Below, piece by piece: positions 21,920 through 27,128 of a DNA stretch of 64,000 bases. The DNA lies in NCBI RefSeq assembly GCF_002846415.1, contig NZ_PJMX01000001.1:7440001-7504000 (forward strand), written 5' to 3'. The stretch comes from Streptomyces sp. TLI_146. GTDB lineage: Bacteria > Actinomycetota > Actinomycetes > Streptomycetales > Streptomycetaceae. Under the pieces are notes generated by a model that was not told the DNA's origin, did not search any database, and saw nothing but the letters and a program-made list of their open reading frames with translations. Every line of letters starts with the position of its first letter. Within the stretch, counting starts at the first letter, position 1. The position numbers and the translations under genes were made by a program.

Positions 21920-22780
21920 ATGCCGGAATTGCCCGAAGTGGAAGCGCTCCGCGACTTCCTCGCCACGCATCTCGTCGGCCATCGGATCGCCCGCGCGCAG
22001 CCGGTCGCGATCAGCGTCCTGAAGACGTACGACCCGCCGCTGACCGCCCTCGACGGGCGTGCGGTCACCGGGGTGGGGCGGTACGGCAAGTTCCTCGACA
22101 TCGACGCCGACGGCCTCCACCTGGCGCTCCATCTGGCCCGGGCCGGCTGGCTGCGCTGGCACGACGAGCTGCCCGCCGGGCCGCCGCGCCCCGGCAAGGG
22201 CCCGCTGGCGCTGCGGGTCGCTCTGGAGGGCGGCGCCGGGTTCGACCTGACCGAGGCGGGCACCCGCAAGAGCCTCGCCGCGTACCTGGTCCGCGACCCG
22301 CGGGAGGTGCCCGGCATCGCCCGGCTCGGGCCCGACCCGCTCGCCCCGGAATTCGACCGCGACCGGTTCGCCGGACTGCTCGCGGGGGAGCGGCGCCAAC
22401 TCAAGGGCGCGCTGCGCGATCAGTCGCTGATCGCCGGGATCGGCAACGCCTACAGCGACGAGATCCTCCATGTGGCGCGGATGTCGCCGTTCAAGCAGGT
22501 GGACCGGCTCACCGACGACGAGACCACCACGCTGTACGAGGCGGTCCGCGCCACCCTCACCGACGCGGTGGAGCGCTCGCGCGGGCTCGGGGCGGGCCGC
22601 CTCAAGGCGGAGAAGAAGAGCGGGATGCGGGTGCACGGCCGCACCGGCGAGCCCTGCCCGGTCTGCGGCGACACGGTCCGCGAGGTCTCCTTCGCGGACT
22701 CCTCGCTCCAGTACTGCGCCACCTGCCAGACCGGCGGCAAGATCCTCGCCGACCGCCGGATGTCCAAGCTGCTCAAGTAG
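21920..22780 (+). CDS. Fpg/Nei-family DNA glycosylase
   Basis: 286 residues. Begins MPELPEVEALRDFL, so after removal of Met the catalytic proline and following glutamate are in place. The helix-two-turn-helix LKGALRDQSLIAGIGNAYSD binds DNA. The C-terminal zinc finger is CPVCG with CATCQTGGK. It excises oxidised bases and cuts the abasic site. Whether it acts as Fpg (8-oxoguanine) or Nei (oxidised pyrimidines) cannot be told from sequence alone. It is convergent with the anti-sigma-like gene, 32 bases apart. Confidence 0.93.
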   Translation: MPELPEVEALRDFLATHLVGHRIARAQPVAISVLKTYDPPLTALDGRAVTGVGRYGKFLDIDADGLHLALHLARAGWLRWHDELPAGPPRPGKGPLALRVALEGGAGFDLTEAGTRKSLAAYLVRDPREVPGIARLGPDPLAPEFDRDRFAGLLAGERRQLKGALRDQSLIAGIGNAYSDEILHVARMSPFKQVDRLTDDETTTLYEAVRATLTDAVERSRGLGAGRLKAEKKSGMRVHGRTGEPCPVCGDTVREVSFADSSLQYCATCQTGGKILADRRMSKLLK

Positions 22781-22812
22781 CGCTTCCCGTACGGAGGATG
22801 GTCACCCCGTAC

Positions 22813-23460
22813 TCAGCCCGACCTGGTCAGGGTCGCGAGCCGGGCCCCGTCCCGGGTCCGTACCTCGAAATGGGAGATGTCGGCGGGCGCCAGCGCCGCG
22901 GCCCCGCGCATCGTCACCTGGGCCCCGTCCTGAACCGCCCAGGTCGCCACCGTGTCCTCCTCGCCGCCGCGCCCCACCGCGACCAGCGTGCACACCGCCG
23001 GGCCGCGCACCCCGCCCACGTCGAGCCCCACGTCGGTGCCGAACCCGGCGGGCGCGGCCGCCAGCGTCGCCGTCACCCCGGGCGCCGACGCGGTCGCCGT
23101 CCAGTGCGGCGCGGCCGGGTCCGCCATCAGGCCGAGCGCCGCGAAGGGCGCGCCCACCACCAGCGCCGCCGCGGCCACCAGCAGCCCTAGCCGCCTCCTG
23201 CGCCGCGCCCGCAGCCGGGCGCCCACCGCGCCGAGCGCCGCGTGGAGCAGCCCGGGCGACGGCGCGGCGACCGGGTCCACCCCGGGCGGCGTCCAGCGGG
23301 CGTACGCGGCGAGCAGCGCCTCCACGCTCCCGAGCTCCTCCAGCAGGCGCGCGCAGTGCGCGCACCCCGCCAGGTGCTCCTCGAAGCGGAAGGTTTCGGC
23401 GACACCGAGCACCCCGAGCGCGTACGCCCCGACGTCCCGGTGGAGTTCCAGCGGCCTCAT
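22813..23460 (-). CDS. Membrane zinc-finger anti-sigma factor
   Basis: 215 residues from ATG 23460. N-terminal ELHRDVGAYALGVL and HLAGCAHCARLLEEL form the His-x3-Cys-x2-Cys zinc-binding anti-sigma motif. One membrane helix (LGLLVAAAALVVGAPFAALG, about residues 93-112) follows, then an extracellular beta-rich domain. This is the layout of anti-ECF sigma factors of the RskA type. No sigma gene is adjacent on this strand; the nearest is the ECF gene 1.6 kb away. A TTG start 12 codons upstream is less likely. Confidence 0.88.
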   Translation of the reverse strand: MRPLELHRDVGAYALGVLGVAETFRFEEHLAGCAHCARLLEELGSVEALLAAYARWTPPGVDPVAAPSPGLLHAALGAVGARLRARRRRRLGLLVAAAALVVGAPFAALGLMADPAAPHWTATASAPGVTATLAAAPAGFGTDVGLDVGGVRGPAVCTLVAVGRGGEEDTVATWAVQDGAQVTMRGAAALAPADISHFEVRTRDGARLATLTRSG

Positions 23461-23532
23461 GCCGTCTGGTACGCAGACGGCGGCCCAATCACTCAAGTCA
23501 CACGGGAAGGGACAGTAAGGAGTCGGCGCACC

Positions 23533-23538
23533 TACAAT
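23533..23538 (+). promoter_or_regulatory. -10 box of the LytTR gene (leaderless)
   Basis: TACAAT eight bases before the ATG at 23547, with no ribosome site at normal spacing. Confidence 0.45.
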
Positions 23539-23546
23539 CCGACCGC

Positions 23547-24308
23547 ATGCTGCGCGTACTGGCCGTCGACGACGAAGCCCCCGCCCTGGAGGAGCTGCTG
23601 TACCTCCTGCGCTCCGATCCGCGGATCCGCAGCGCCGAGGGAGCCACCGGGGCCACCGACGCGCTGCGCCTGATCGGCGGCGCGCTGGACGCCGGGCCCG
23701 ACGACGAACAGGGCGTCGACGTCGTCTTCCTCGACATCCACATGGCCGGGCTCACCGGACTCGACATCGCCCGGCTGCTCGCCGGGTTCGCCCGGCCGCC
23801 GCTGATCGTCTTCGTCACCGCGCACGAGGGCTTCGCCGTCCAGGCCTTCGACCTGAAGGCGGTCGACTACGTGCTCAAGCCCGTCCGCAGGGAGCGGCTC
23901 GCGGAGGCGGTGCGCCGGGTGGCCGAGATGACGGGGGAGCGCGGCCCGGCGCTCCCGGAGGTGCACGAGTCCGCCACGGCCCACATAGCCGTCGAGCTCG
24001 GCGGCGTCACCCGGTTCCTGGCCGTCGCCGACATCGCGTACGCCGAGGCGCAGGGCGACTACGCCCGGCTGCACACCGATTCCGGCAGTCATCTGGTGCG
24101 CGTGCCGCTGTCGACGCTGGAGGACCGCTGGCGCGCGCACGGGTTCGTGCGGATCCACCGCAGCCACCTGGTGGCGCTCGCCAGGATCGACGAACTGCGC
24201 CTGGAGGCGGGCAGCATGACCGTCCGCATCGGCGGGGCCGAGCTCCCCGTCAGCCGCCGCCATGCCCGCACCCTCCGCGACCAGCTGATGCGTCGCGGCG
24301 GTCGTTGA
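23547..24308 (+). CDS. LytTR-family response regulator
   Basis: 253 residues. Receiver domain: acidic pair in VLAVDDEAPALEEL, phosphoacceptor Asp in VDVVFLDIHMAGLTGLD, then FVTAHEGFAVQAFDLKAVDY and the lysine of VLKPVRRERL. The C-terminal 100 residues are LytTR (AYAEAQGDYARLHTDSG, FVRIHRSHLVALARI, LPVSRRHARTLRD). It should bind DNA as a phosphorylated dimer. No sensor kinase lies beside it, so its partner is elsewhere. It is convergent with the hypothetical gene at 24338. Confidence 0.93.
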   Translation: MLRVLAVDDEAPALEELLYLLRSDPRIRSAEGATGATDALRLIGGALDAGPDDEQGVDVVFLDIHMAGLTGLDIARLLAGFARPPLIVFVTAHEGFAVQAFDLKAVDYVLKPVRRERLAEAVRRVAEMTGERGPALPEVHESATAHIAVELGGVTRFLAVADIAYAEAQGDYARLHTDSGSHLVRVPLSTLEDRWRAHGFVRIHRSHLVALARIDELRLEAGSMTVRIGGAELPVSRRHARTLRDQLMRRGGR

Positions 24309-24337
24309 CGCTCCACCGCCTGCCTACTGATGGTGCG

Positions 24338-24829
24338 TCAGAACAGATGGATCGCCAGATGCCCGAGCGGCAGGCCGAGTTCCCACGCCGGGGTCCACAC
24401 CCGCGGCTCGTCCTCGGCCTCGGCGCGCGGGTCGACCCCGCCCGGCACGACCGCGTCCAGGTCCGCGGCCAGCAGCTCGGTCTCCTCCAGCCACCGCCAC
24501 GCGTCCCGCGCCAGCGCCAGGTCGGGGCCGGACCCGGCCGCCTCCCGCTCGCGCAGGCGCTCGCGGACCCAGCCGTGCCACGGCCGCCCGGCCGCGGTGA
24601 GCGAACTCCACTCGTCGAGTCTGGCCACCACCCGCGCGCCGCCGACCGCGCCGTCCGACAGGAAGATCGTCAACGCCAAGGCGTTGCGTCCGGCCCTGAA
24701 TTCGAGCGTCGTCGGCGGCATGAGATCGCCGGTGCGCAGTAATTCGTCGGCGATGTACTCCGCGTACATCCATGCCATCGGCACCAGCAGTTCGCCACCA
24801 CTGGTCCCGTTCGTACCCTCCGGACGCAT
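24338..24829 (-). CDS. Hypothetical protein
   Basis: 163 residues, soluble, acidic. No domain is recognised. Features seen: an N-terminal helix MAWMYAEYIADELLRTGDL, a region rich in Trp (WHGWVRERL, AWRWLEETELL) and a C terminus ending LGLPLGHLAIHLF. Codon use is normal for the window, with strong G+C at third positions, and GAGGCGAGA precedes the ATG. It is divergent from the short zinc-finger gene at 24951. Confidence 0.7.
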   Translation of the reverse strand: MRPEGTNGTSGGELLVPMAWMYAEYIADELLRTGDLMPPTTLEFRAGRNALALTIFLSDGAVGGARVVARLDEWSSLTAAGRPWHGWVRERLREREAAGSGPDLALARDAWRWLEETELLAADLDAVVPGGVDPRAEAEDEPRVWTPAWELGLPLGHLAIHLF

Positions 24830-24950
24830 TCCGTCTCGCCTCTTTCATCGACTGTCCAGGCGCTCCAGGGAGCTCCAGGGAGCATTGAACCGGGGGCGCG
24901 TGCCCGCCGTGGCCAGAAGGGCAGGATCCGTCATCCCCTACGAGGTGCCC

Positions 24951-25139
24951 ATGCATGTGCGGCAGTCGCTCGGCGCGTACGTCCTCGGCGCCCTCGCGCC
25001 GGACGAGGACCGCCGGGTCGCCGGTCATCTGCGCACCTGCCCGGACTGCCGCGCGGCCTACCTGGAGGTCGCGGAGGCGCCCTCGATGCTGGCCCTGCTC
25101 TCCGAGGAGGACCTGGCGGACGGGCCGCCGGACGAGTAG
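24951..25139 (+). CDS. Minimal zinc-finger anti-sigma-like protein
   Basis: 62 residues from ATG 24951 (GAGG just upstream). SLGAYVLGALAPDEDRRVAG then HLRTCPDCRAAYLEV gives the His-x3-Cys-x2-Cys anti-sigma zinc motif and resembles the first 45 residues of the membrane anti-sigma protein at 22813. There is no membrane helix or sensor domain. Its last 82 bases run antisense through the 3' end of the ECF sigma gene, an unusual tail-to-tail arrangement for such a pair. Confidence 0.8.
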   Translation: MHVRQSLGAYVLGALAPDEDRRVAGHLRTCPDCRAAYLEVAEAPSMLALLSEEDLADGPPDE

Positions 25140-25705
25140 CCCGGCAGGACCCGCGCCAGGGCCCGCAGAGCATAGTACGAGCGGGACTTGACGGTGCCGC
25201 ACGGCACCCCCAGGACCTCCGCCGCCTCGGCCACGCTCAGTCCCCGGAAGTAGATCTGCGCCAGCACCGCCCGGTGCTCGGGGCTCAGGGTGCGCACCGC
25301 GTCCCGGACGTCGAGCGCCGCCGCCGACCGCTCGGCGTGGTCGTCCTGCGCCTCCACGCGCGCGTCGAGCACGGCGTCGTGCACCTCGACCGGCCGCGCC
25401 TGCCGGTTGCGGCGGGCGTCGATCGCCAGCCGCCGCCCGACGGTGAACAGCCACGGCCGCATCGAGGCGTACGGGCCCTCGAACGCCTCCGGGTGCTGCC
25501 AGGCCCGCACCAGCGTCTCCTGGAGCAGGTCCTCGGCGCGCTGACGGTCGCCGTAGGTGAGGCCGAGCAGGAAGTGCATCAGGGCGGGGCCGTGCTCGCG
25601 CTGGAGTGCCGCGAGGTCGGGCTCGCGGGTGTACCGCCGCGGCGGCGCCGCACCTCGTGGGGCCGCGTCCGCCCGTGGGGCCGCGTCCGAGATACCCGTG
25701 CTCAC
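25058..25705 (-). CDS. ECF-family RNA polymerase sigma factor
   Basis: 215 residues from GTG 25705 (GGGAG upstream). Sigma region 2 is LTYGDRQRAEDLLQETLVRA with YASMRPWLFTVGRRLAIDAR. Region 4 is LSPEHRAVLAQIYFRGLSVA with LGVPCGTVKSRSYYALRAL, where the recognition helix lies. The family core ends near ARVLPGY. The last 25 residues (Ser/Arg-rich) are encoded by the strand opposite the zinc-finger gene. No extra SnoaL-type C-terminal domain. It is likely controlled by one or both zinc-finger proteins nearby. Confidence 0.93.
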   Translation of the reverse strand: MSTGISDAAPRADAAPRGAAPPRRYTREPDLAALQREHGPALMHFLLGLTYGDRQRAEDLLQETLVRAWQHPEAFEGPYASMRPWLFTVGRRLAIDARRNRQARPVEVHDAVLDARVEAQDDHAERSAAALDVRDAVRTLSPEHRAVLAQIYFRGLSVAEAAEVLGVPCGTVKSRSYYALRALARVLPGYSSGGPSARSSSESRASIEGASATSR

Positions 25706-25869
25706 CGTGGTGCTCCCTTCCCGAGAAGTCCGCAGGCCGCAGCCCGTATCCGAGCGCAGTCGGGCGCGAAGGGACAGCCGCCGGACCGCGACATGCGACG
25801 AACGGTCGAATGGAGCGGCGAATGGTGCGGCGAACGGTTGGGGAATCGGACTATCTATGCATGATGTGG

Positions 25870-25892
25870 ATATCTGATAATCAATCAGGTAT
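25870..25892. promoter_or_regulatory. AT-rich inverted repeat before the CapA-like gene
   Basis: Nine-base arms ATATCTGAT and ATCAGGTAT (one mismatch) are separated by five bases. A GATAAT hexamer at 25876-25881 inside it could be the -10. The patch is strikingly AT-rich for this genome and lies 25 bases before the start at 25917, so a repressor site over the promoter is plausible. Confidence 0.5.
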
Positions 25893-25916
25893 TTCCGACC
25901 CATGGAGCCCGGTGCC

Positions 25917-27128
25917 ATGACCAGCAGCACGAGCCGGCGGACGGCGGCCGTCGCGGCCCTCGTCCTCGCCGCGACCGCCGGGTGCGCGGTGGAGCACCCC
26001 GCCCCCGCGCGCCTGCCGCACCACCAGGACTCCGAGCGGCCCGGCACGCCGTCGCCGGCCGGCGGCTCCGCGAAGGCGGGGCCGCGCCCGTTCACGCTGG
26101 TCGCCACCGGTGACGTACTGCCGCACTCCTCGACCATCGAGCGCGCCGCGGCCGACGCGAGCGGGGACGGCTACGACTTCCGGCCGATGCTCGCCGGGGT
26201 CAAGCCGGTGATCTCCCGGGCGGACCTGGCGATCTGTCACATGGAGACGGTGTACGGGCCGGACGGCGGGCCCTTCACCGGCTATCCGGCGTTCAAGTCG
26301 CCGCCGCAGGTGGCCGCCGCGCTCAAGGACACCGGGTACGACTCGTGCTCGACCGCGTCCAACCACAGCCTCGACGACGGGGCGGACGGGATCGCCCGGA
26401 CCCTTCGCGCCTTCGACAAGGCGGGCCTCAAGCACACCGGATCGGGCCGCACGGCCACGGAGTCGGCGGCGCCCGCCCTGCTGGAAGCGGGCGGCGCCAA
26501 GGTCGCCCAGCTGGCGTACACATACGACACCAACGGCTATCCGATGCCGGACGGCCAGCCGTGGGCCGTCCACCTCATCGACGAGCGGAAGATCCTCGCG
26601 GACGCGCGCGCGGCGCGGAAGGCGGGGGCCGACGTGGTCGTCGTCAGCCTGCACTGGGGCACCGAGTGGCAGACCGAGCCCGACGAGCAGCAGCTCACGC
26701 TGGGCAAGGCGCTCACGGCCTCCCGCACCGGCGGCCGCCCCGACATCGACCTCGTCCTGGGCACGCACGCGCACATCCCGCAGGCGTACGAGAAGGTCAA
26801 CGGCACCTGGATCGTCTACGGCGAGGGCGACCAGATCGCGGGGGAGATGTTCAACAACTCCGGCGCGCGCGATCCGCGCGGCAACATGAGCTCCATCGCC
26901 CGCTTCACGTTCACGCCGCCCGCCCGGGAGGGGGCGCGCTGGGAGGTCACCAAGGCGGAGTTCATCCCCCAGTGGGTCGACGCGGACCGCGGCCGCGTCA
27001 TCAACCTCCCCGAGGCCCTGCGCACCTCCCCCGACCGGGAGGACTACCGCACGGCACAGACGGAGATCCGGGAGGCGGTGCTGGGCCGCGGGGCGGTGAG
27101 GGACGGACTGACGATGGCGACGGGGTAG
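25917..27128 (+). CDS. CapA-family lipoprotein (PgsA-like)
   Basis: 403 residues from ATG 25917 (ATG 25902 is an alternative). The N terminus ends in a lipobox, LAATAGC, so it is a surface lipoprotein. The core has the CapA metallophosphatase-like motifs: FTLVATGDVLPHSS, ADLAICHMETVYG, STASNHSLDDGADGI, VVVSLHWGTEW and VLGTHAHIPQAYEKV. CapA is needed for poly-gamma-glutamate export, but many Streptomyces copies stand alone, as here with no capBC. Probable cell-surface phosphoesterase-fold protein. Confidence 0.9.
   Translation: MTSSTSRRTAAVAALVLAATAGCAVEHPAPARLPHHQDSERPGTPSPAGGSAKAGPRPFTLVATGDVLPHSSTIERAAADASGDGYDFRPMLAGVKPVISRADLAICHMETVYGPDGGPFTGYPAFKSPPQVAAALKDTGYDSCSTASNHSLDDGADGIARTLRAFDKAGLKHTGSGRTATESAAPALLEAGGAKVAQLAYTYDTNGYPMPDGQPWAVHLIDERKILADARAARKAGADVVVVSLHWGTEWQTEPDEQQLTLGKALTASRTGGRPDIDLVLGTHAHIPQAYEKVNGTWIVYGEGDQIAGEMFNNSGARDPRGNMSSIARFTFTPPAREGARWEVTKAEFIPQWVDADRGRVINLPEALRTSPDREDYRTAQTEIREAVLGRGAVRDGLTMATG

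Follow-up and report, generated by a model that had tools for sequence, protein, structure and literature searches.

A SigL-type sigma factor gene of Streptomyces overlaps, tail to tail, the gene of a minimal zinc-finger anti-sigma-like protein that it may itself control

The window analyzed in this work is a stretch of 64,000 nucleotides from Streptomyces sp. TLI_146. The genes and sites on which the argument depends lie in it as follows, with the basis of each assignment in parentheses:

25058..25705, minus strand: SIG, an ECF sigma factor of the SigL type (Pfam Sigma70_r2/r4; NF007227/PRK09645; M. tuberculosis SigL 6dv9)
25136–25147, minus strand: LPGY, the end of the SIG core; the 25 residues beyond it have the antisense ZAS gene as their template (sequence)
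24951..25139, plus strand: mini-ZAS, a 62-residue zinc-finger anti-sigma-like protein (HLRTCPDC) with helices 1–3 only (zf-HC2, RslA match, AF2)
25058..25139, both strands: antisense overlap of the SIG and mini-ZAS coding regions, 82 bp (sequence; 64 loci)
24886..24913, plus strand: SigL/ECF-type promoter-like site of mini-ZAS, TGAACC-N16-CGTGGC (motif conservation)
24338..24829, minus strand: P4, a 163-residue protein, the co-directional neighbor downstream of SIG (recurrent neighbor, no family match)
23547..24308, plus strand: LytTR response regulator, on the opposite strand and nested between P4 and ASF (Pfam LytTR, Response_reg)
22813..23496, minus strand: ASF, a full-length ZAS anti-sigma factor on the SIG strand, with a hydrophobic segment (zf-HC2; RslA match)
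25795..25838, minus strand: region upstream of SIG with three direct repeats ACC[AG]TTCG[CT]CGC, a putative operator (repeat scan)

The SIG reading frame starts with GTG and that of mini-ZAS with ATG; both end with TAG, and mini-ZAS is nested on the opposite strand between SIG and P4. An earlier note on this DNA had reported the coordinates of the two genes and their tail-to-tail overlap of 82 bases, which both open reading frames bear out, and its domain calls, made from motifs (ECF sigma factor; ZAS), agree with the Pfam matches to Sigma70_r2/r4 and zf-HC2. It was also right that the sigma core ends near LPGY, where the homologues end theirs (with one LPDY and one MPGY), and that the last 25 residues of SIG are the reverse strand of anti-sigma codons. 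The likely start of ASF is at 23460 according to a crude gene finder, and its membrane segment was read by eye. Between 22500 and 26000, a search for intrinsic terminators found none, and there is one sigma-70 promoter-like match, at 23509–23538.

SIG scores 231.4 bits against NF007227/PRK09645, above the curated cut-off of 202; we take PRK09645 to be SigL. In a single-sequence search, the best solved relative of SIG is M. tuberculosis SigL (6dv9, E 2.9e-30). The three repeat units upstream of SIG have their starts 12 and 20 bp apart in the window, and they are a regular companion of the gene: at least two units occur in 96 of the 100 SIG loci scanned and at least one in all 100, the background being 0.09 per 330 bp. 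Control of SIG by the LytTR regulator via these repeats was considered and is not claimed, since the repeats occur also in islands that contain no LytTR gene.

The usual Streptomyces island has FPG, ASF, P4, SIG, and CAPA, in this order, with the LytTR regulator, a symporter, and a histidine kinase encoded on the other strand between ASF and P4. The symporter and histidine kinase genes, found in many related islands in the LytTR–P4 interval, are absent from the window (24309–24337) and from S. melanogenes (L116); the LytTR regulator of the window is left with no neighboring kinase. P4 has no match in Pfam or NCBIfam, and its all-helical AF2 model has no credible match in Foldseek (best E 4.3); it is seen at nearly all sigma loci (it is absent from L089 and L232) and may be part of the sigma pathway.

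Mini-ZAS matches zf-HC2 with an E-value of 1.1e-9 (38.6 bits; Pfam cut-off 22.2), and its best solved relative in a profile search is RslA (3hug_B, E 1.1e-13), the match ending at residue 80 of the 108 of RslA. The H-x3-C-x2-C zinc motif is present, with H26, C30, and C33 invariant in an alignment of 54 rows. The AF2 model (mean pLDDT 87) contains the three-helix anti-sigma bundle (helices 2–11, 17–29, and 31–40); past helix 3 it has only short pieces (43–48 and 52–55), that is, helix 4 is not in the model. When this model is submitted to Foldseek, the top seven matches are all RslA chains (3hug; prob 1.00, E 0.007–0.044, none under 0.001). A membrane helix and an extracytoplasmic part are absent from the protein, which has 62 residues in total. 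In most of 18 aligned loci, a GAG(G) block precedes its start codon.

What such a short protein could do is suggested by the available parts of two papers: in anti-sigma factors, helices 1–3 form the bundle, with helix 1 touching region 4 of the sigma factor and helix 4 touching region 2, the latter by co-evolution analysis (PMC7406223), and of these two regions RslA holds region 4 the more tightly (PMC2877774). Because RslA prefers region 4, capping of this region alone is plausible; lacking helix 4, mini-ZAS may also be a weak binder or have another role. Twelve mini-ZAS copies are not tail to tail with a sigma gene; from the start of the match they have 61–102 residues, that is, they are also fairly short, so the shortness of mini-ZAS is not caused by the overlap. 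In a tree of ZAS proteins, all mini-ZAS proteins, tail to tail or not, group together and apart from the full-length ones; the tree is too short, and its root too poor, to tell which of the two genomic positions came first.

The overlap is real and is conserved beyond chance. Synteny in other Streptomyces, which the earlier note had proposed as a check, is present in 64 of 105 distinct sigma loci; because these loci were picked partly by sigma rank and partly by ZAS matches and are no random sample, this fraction is not usable as a frequency. The overlaps are 52–100 bp long and fall into few classes (67 bp in 46 loci; 82, 64, and 100 bp in five each; 79, 70, and 52 bp in one each). The other 41 loci comprise one in which the two genes are adjacent with no overlap, six with a mini-ZAS elsewhere in the island (from five genomes, one of which has two sigma genes), and 34 that contain no mini-ZAS. 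In an even sample of the genus (295 genomes), 228 genomes have a match to SIG at E ≤ 1e-50 and 55 have one to the mini-ZAS profile at E ≤ 1e-10; 34 of these 55 have the tail-to-tail overlap (all 34 confirmed on the DNA), one has the genes adjacent and not overlapping (G225, locus L076), and five have mini-ZAS elsewhere in the island. Thus at least 34 of 295 genomes carry the overlap, a lower bound that leaves aside 15 genomes among the 55 with weaker matches to the mini-ZAS profile. A ZAS reading frame lies opposite the 3′ end of the sigma gene in 30 of 30 loci when the window is taken together with the 29 best sigma matches from other genomes for which DNA is available (L009–L037), and among the best 80 of 143 relatives in a named collection the overlap is found also in S. 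melanogenes, S. griseus, S. atratus, S. anulatus, and others.

On a sigma-core tree of 104 loci (midpoint-rooted, some nodes weak; L232 left out here and in the stop analyses that require LPGY), the overlap state needs five steps, which is compatible with one early origin and a few losses. Homologues that have no overlap, which the earlier note had named as a case that would count against it, do exist, and 40 of the 105 loci show neither overlap nor adjacency; at least four of them (L086, L087, L088, and L093) look like ZAS losses because the ZAS promoter motif remains (vide infra), and do not refute the pair. The 41 sigma genes with no overlap end 5 to 24 residues past the Tyr in 36 cases, 34 residues past it in four, and 50 in one. 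Since L076 lost the overlap and several lineages have no ZAS, neither the overlap nor ZAS is essential.

The two genes share their stop codons with each other's reading frames. In the overlap, the third codon positions of the two genes are paired with each other, and the first and second positions of one gene with the second and first of the other. A Tyr codon with a C before it then reads TAG on the opposite strand. The sigma TAG is the complement of C|TA at Tyr37 of ZAS in 63 of the 64 overlap loci (in L163, Gln comes first), and the ZAS TAG is the complement of C|TA in the Gly-Tyr of the sigma LPGY in 62 of 64 (two ZAS stop earlier). At the codon read immediately ahead of the sigma stop, the last base is C or T in all 64 loci (30 GCC, 17 GAC, 12 GTC, 2 GCT, and 3 others; Ala, Asp, Val, Ile, Gly, or Leu is encoded), although in the rest of these genes only about half of the Ala and Val codons end this way. 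When changes are counted on the tree, column 36, that is, the codon before Tyr37, has no third-base change between purine and pyrimidine despite nine amino-acid changes; of the 40 usable columns, it alone has no such change (mean 7.2, median 7; L082 left out of the column table). Columns 3 and 55 show one such change each, so low counts arise also where there is no stop to keep. A control Ala-Tyr pair (columns 9–10), in the same antisense frame beyond the sigma stop and outside the overlap, has nine changes. On the sigma side, the third base of the LPGY Gly codon is C or T in 64 of 64 overlap loci versus 29 of 40 non-overlap loci (Fisher 1e-5, relatedness not corrected; one further non-overlap locus has no LPGY and lies outside this comparison). 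Each gene's stop therefore looks maintained, and both stop codons look selected.

The sigma tail itself is another matter. Read in reverse, the codons of ZAS helix 3 mostly turn Leu into Ser or Arg, Glu into Ser, Ala into Ala, and Val into Thr, which makes a loose tail. In the overlap, 22 of 63 C/G changes are non-synonymous, which gives a ratio of non-synonymous to synonymous rates of 0.66; in an untranslated control frame, 56 of 139 are, and the ratio is 1.14. This sign of constraint on the tail at the protein level is not significant (p 0.13), and selection on the sigma tail as a protein is not claimed.

A promoter-like motif may link the two genes. TGAACC-N16-CGTGG stands upstream of mini-ZAS in 65 of 65 tail-to-tail loci. 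The sequence available for the 64 overlap loci, in many cases no longer than 3.6 kb, contains 69 matches to TGAACC-N15-18-CGT, of which 64 are upstream of ZAS, one is upstream of SIG, and four are elsewhere. Thirty-three co-directional SigL-type loci, some closely related to each other and one of them (L002) from the window's own genome, were searched for TGAAC[C/G]-N15-18-CGT near the sigma start: 22 have it (0.024 expected per 360 bp), at −55 to +22 of the extrapolated start and with N16 spacing in 21 of the 22; the 11 with no match include L002, a paralogue. The −10 region of M. tuberculosis sigma-L prefers C-G and then T-G, as given in the accessible part of PMC6372665; the motif near the co-directional sigma starts fits both SigL-type autoregulation and this published region. 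For the 12 mini-ZAS loci that are not tail to tail, nine have no motif match and three have off-consensus matches only. It could also be a different ECF factor, one that shares this specificity, that uses the motif. In the window's genome, the strict motif has eight matches (the ZAS site is one) versus two for a reversed control, and the surroundings were read at one other site (L240); a genome-wide regulon is not claimed. In the four loci from which ZAS is gone, the motif that is kept lies inside the sigma frame (L086) or 59, 59, and 139 bp off, pointing at the sigma end (L087, L088, and L093, respectively). The location of the SigL-type motif, upstream of ZAS in 64 of 64 loci and of SIG in 1 of 64, predicts that the sigma factor would raise both its own inhibitor and an antisense RNA, that is, negative feedback.

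We consider it probable (about 0.6), as judged from these sequence comparisons, that SIG drives its own soluble anti-sigma-like partner from the antisense strand and that the arrangement is a feedback limiter rather than an either/or switch. We infer that active SIG would transcribe mini-ZAS from TGAACC-N16-CGTGG on the opposite strand; the mini-ZAS protein, with helices 1–3 a soluble and minimal RslA-like partner, would bind and cap sigma region 4, and the ZAS transcript would also reach across the sigma gene's 3′ end, so that capping and transcript together would damp the response. The overlap would then be an old arrangement held by mutual coding, in which each gene supplies the Tyr codon that contains the other's stop; the sigma tail would be mainly a by-product of ZAS codons, and interference at the RNA level would be a possible extra. 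Such an RNA-level effect is not indispensable because L076 lost the overlap.

We would give roughly even odds to an ordinary convergent pair, in which mini-ZAS is a functional anti-sigma factor under sigma control and the overlap, produced accidentally by loss of a stop codon, has no regulatory meaning; this explanation has its protein part in common with the feedback limiter, so the odds of the two sum to more than one. SIG persists in L076 and in the 40 other loci from which the overlap is absent, and the sigma tail shows no significant constraint, as expected if the overlap were an accident. However, the arrangement has been retained through much divergence in a small number of length classes, and the four loci that lost ZAS have kept the promoter motif, either within the sigma 3′ end or close to it; both points speak against an accident.

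The locus also encodes a conventional candidate for the inhibitor. ASF lies 1.6 kb downstream of SIG and is co-directional with it; it matches zf-HC2 (1.2e-5) and RslA (3hug_B, 2.6e-5). Because this full-length ZAS protein is encoded on the SIG strand, mini-ZAS is an additional anti-sigma copy. The statement in the earlier note that an anti-sigma gene, normally co-directional with its sigma gene, is here antisense therefore holds for mini-ZAS, which is on the opposite strand in 65 of 65 tail-to-tail loci, but not for the locus as a whole, in which ASF occupies the usual co-directional downstream position. ASF is on the SIG strand in every island in which both were seen, and L109, L111, L113, L114, L229, and L231 have the plain co-directional run SIG, P4, ASF; the loci from outside Streptomyces in the named collection are co-directional sigma–ZAS pairs, except that of Wenjunlia (L127), which has a ZAS and no sigma gene in the stretch. 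In 29 complete islands with a tail-to-tail ZAS, ASF is missing from 15, a fragment in three, and present in 11; in 28 complete islands that have no ZAS, the corresponding numbers are six, one, and 21 (p 0.028 for the absence of ASF, relatedness not corrected). All five islands with ZAS elsewhere have ASF. These counts omit 10 of 72 stretches in which SIG or FPG is absent, and they omit the window, in which ASF is present. Three of the six ASF-less islands with no ZAS (L086–L088) fall inside the overlap clade of the sigma tree and appear to have lost ZAS secondarily.

These observations bear on the reading that ASF is the true anti-sigma factor of SIG and that mini-ZAS acts as a decoy, senses zinc or redox state for a different partner, or is a duplicate in decay. 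The strand of ASF, its usual membrane-anchored build, and the missing helix 4 of mini-ZAS are as this reading expects; however, more than half of the complete islands with a tail-to-tail mini-ZAS (the 15 of 29 above) have no ASF, the zinc ligands of mini-ZAS are invariant, and the RslA match is far better for the mini-ZAS profile than for the single ASF sequence (a comparison that is not a fair one). We regard this reading as unlikely, although one to be reckoned with. A bolder form of the feedback limiter, dual inhibition by one gene, in which the RNA promoted by SIG and antisense to the 3′ end of the sigma gene would also encode the helix-4-less anti-sigma protein, is in our opinion rather doubtful; on this view, the promoter motif survives in the four ZAS-less loci as if an RNA-only limiter remained.

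The earlier note had proposed either/or control by opposed transcripts that interfere with each other; as a switch, these would silence each other and give two stable states. Models in which cis-antisense transcription is able to yield switches are described in the accessible part of PMC4519249, and convergent transcription across a long overlap, with no intrinsic terminator found at 22500–26000, would suit one. However, autoactivation needs a SigL-type motif upstream of SIG, which is present in only 1 of 64 overlap loci, and it is ZAS that such a motif precedes in all 64, so SIG activity should raise ZAS expression; the proposal is not borne out, and we think a switch improbable. That the ZAS reading frame is no real gene and only an antisense shadow of the sigma gene (long antisense reading frames are common in GC-rich genomes) is hardly credible, since more than half of it (107 of 189 bp, with the codons of the zinc ligands among them) lies beyond the sigma gene, it has a conserved upstream motif, the GAG(G) block, and a constrained stop, and members of its protein family are also encoded at other positions in the island, free of any overlap.

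The antisense mini-ZAS is a variant on the known pairing of sigma factors with ZAS anti-sigma factors. The closest solved relatives of SIG and mini-ZAS, M. tuberculosis SigL and RslA, are known partners, and the likeness extends to the HxxxCxxC anti-sigma domain, a −10 region with CGTG, and the motif that 22 of 33 co-directional relatives have close to the start of the sigma gene. As far as the available parts of the sources go, the genes for SigL and RslA form one operon (PMC13002591) and RslA, which resides in the membrane, has an anti-sigma domain of four helices (PMC2877774); in contrast, mini-ZAS is predicted to be soluble, has no helix 4, and is encoded on the opposite strand by a gene that overlaps the sigma gene. 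The three-helix zinc-binding fold is shared with class I ZAS proteins such as RsrA, ChrR, and RshA. Unlike mini-ZAS, the known soluble ZAS proteins are larger (RsrA has about 105 residues) and keep helix 4, and we know of no soluble ZAS protein that is encoded antisense to its own sigma gene. The accessible text of PMC7406223 puts the share of class I anti-sigma factors with predicted solubility at about a third.

The locus resembles a noncontiguous operon or excludon in that opposite-strand genes are nested in a co-directional run (SIG, [ZAS], P4, [LytTR], ASF). Noncontiguous operons and excludons are defined by transcript mapping; unlike them, the present locus is known here from gene order, and the feedback through a sigma-dependent promoter would be peculiar to it. 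No description of an antisense-overlapping sigma/anti-sigma pair was found in literature titles and the starts of abstracts, a weak negative in that subscription journals were mostly outside the search; PMC9308784, in its accessible part, is unrelated to such an overlap.

In bacteria, long antisense overlaps between coding regions are often dismissed. The present one joins a regulator and its likely inhibitor, is kept in dozens of Streptomyces, has both stops apparently constrained, and comes with a putative promoter link. If the feedback limiter is true, a ZAS protein can work in the absence of helix 4, to which the blocking of sigma region 2 is attributed. As a minor observation, one island with mini-ZAS away from the sigma 3′ end (L077, 1794–3095, in G285) has tandem SIG-type sigma genes, with transposase-like reading frames nearby (by eye) and mini-ZAS beside the LytTR gene.
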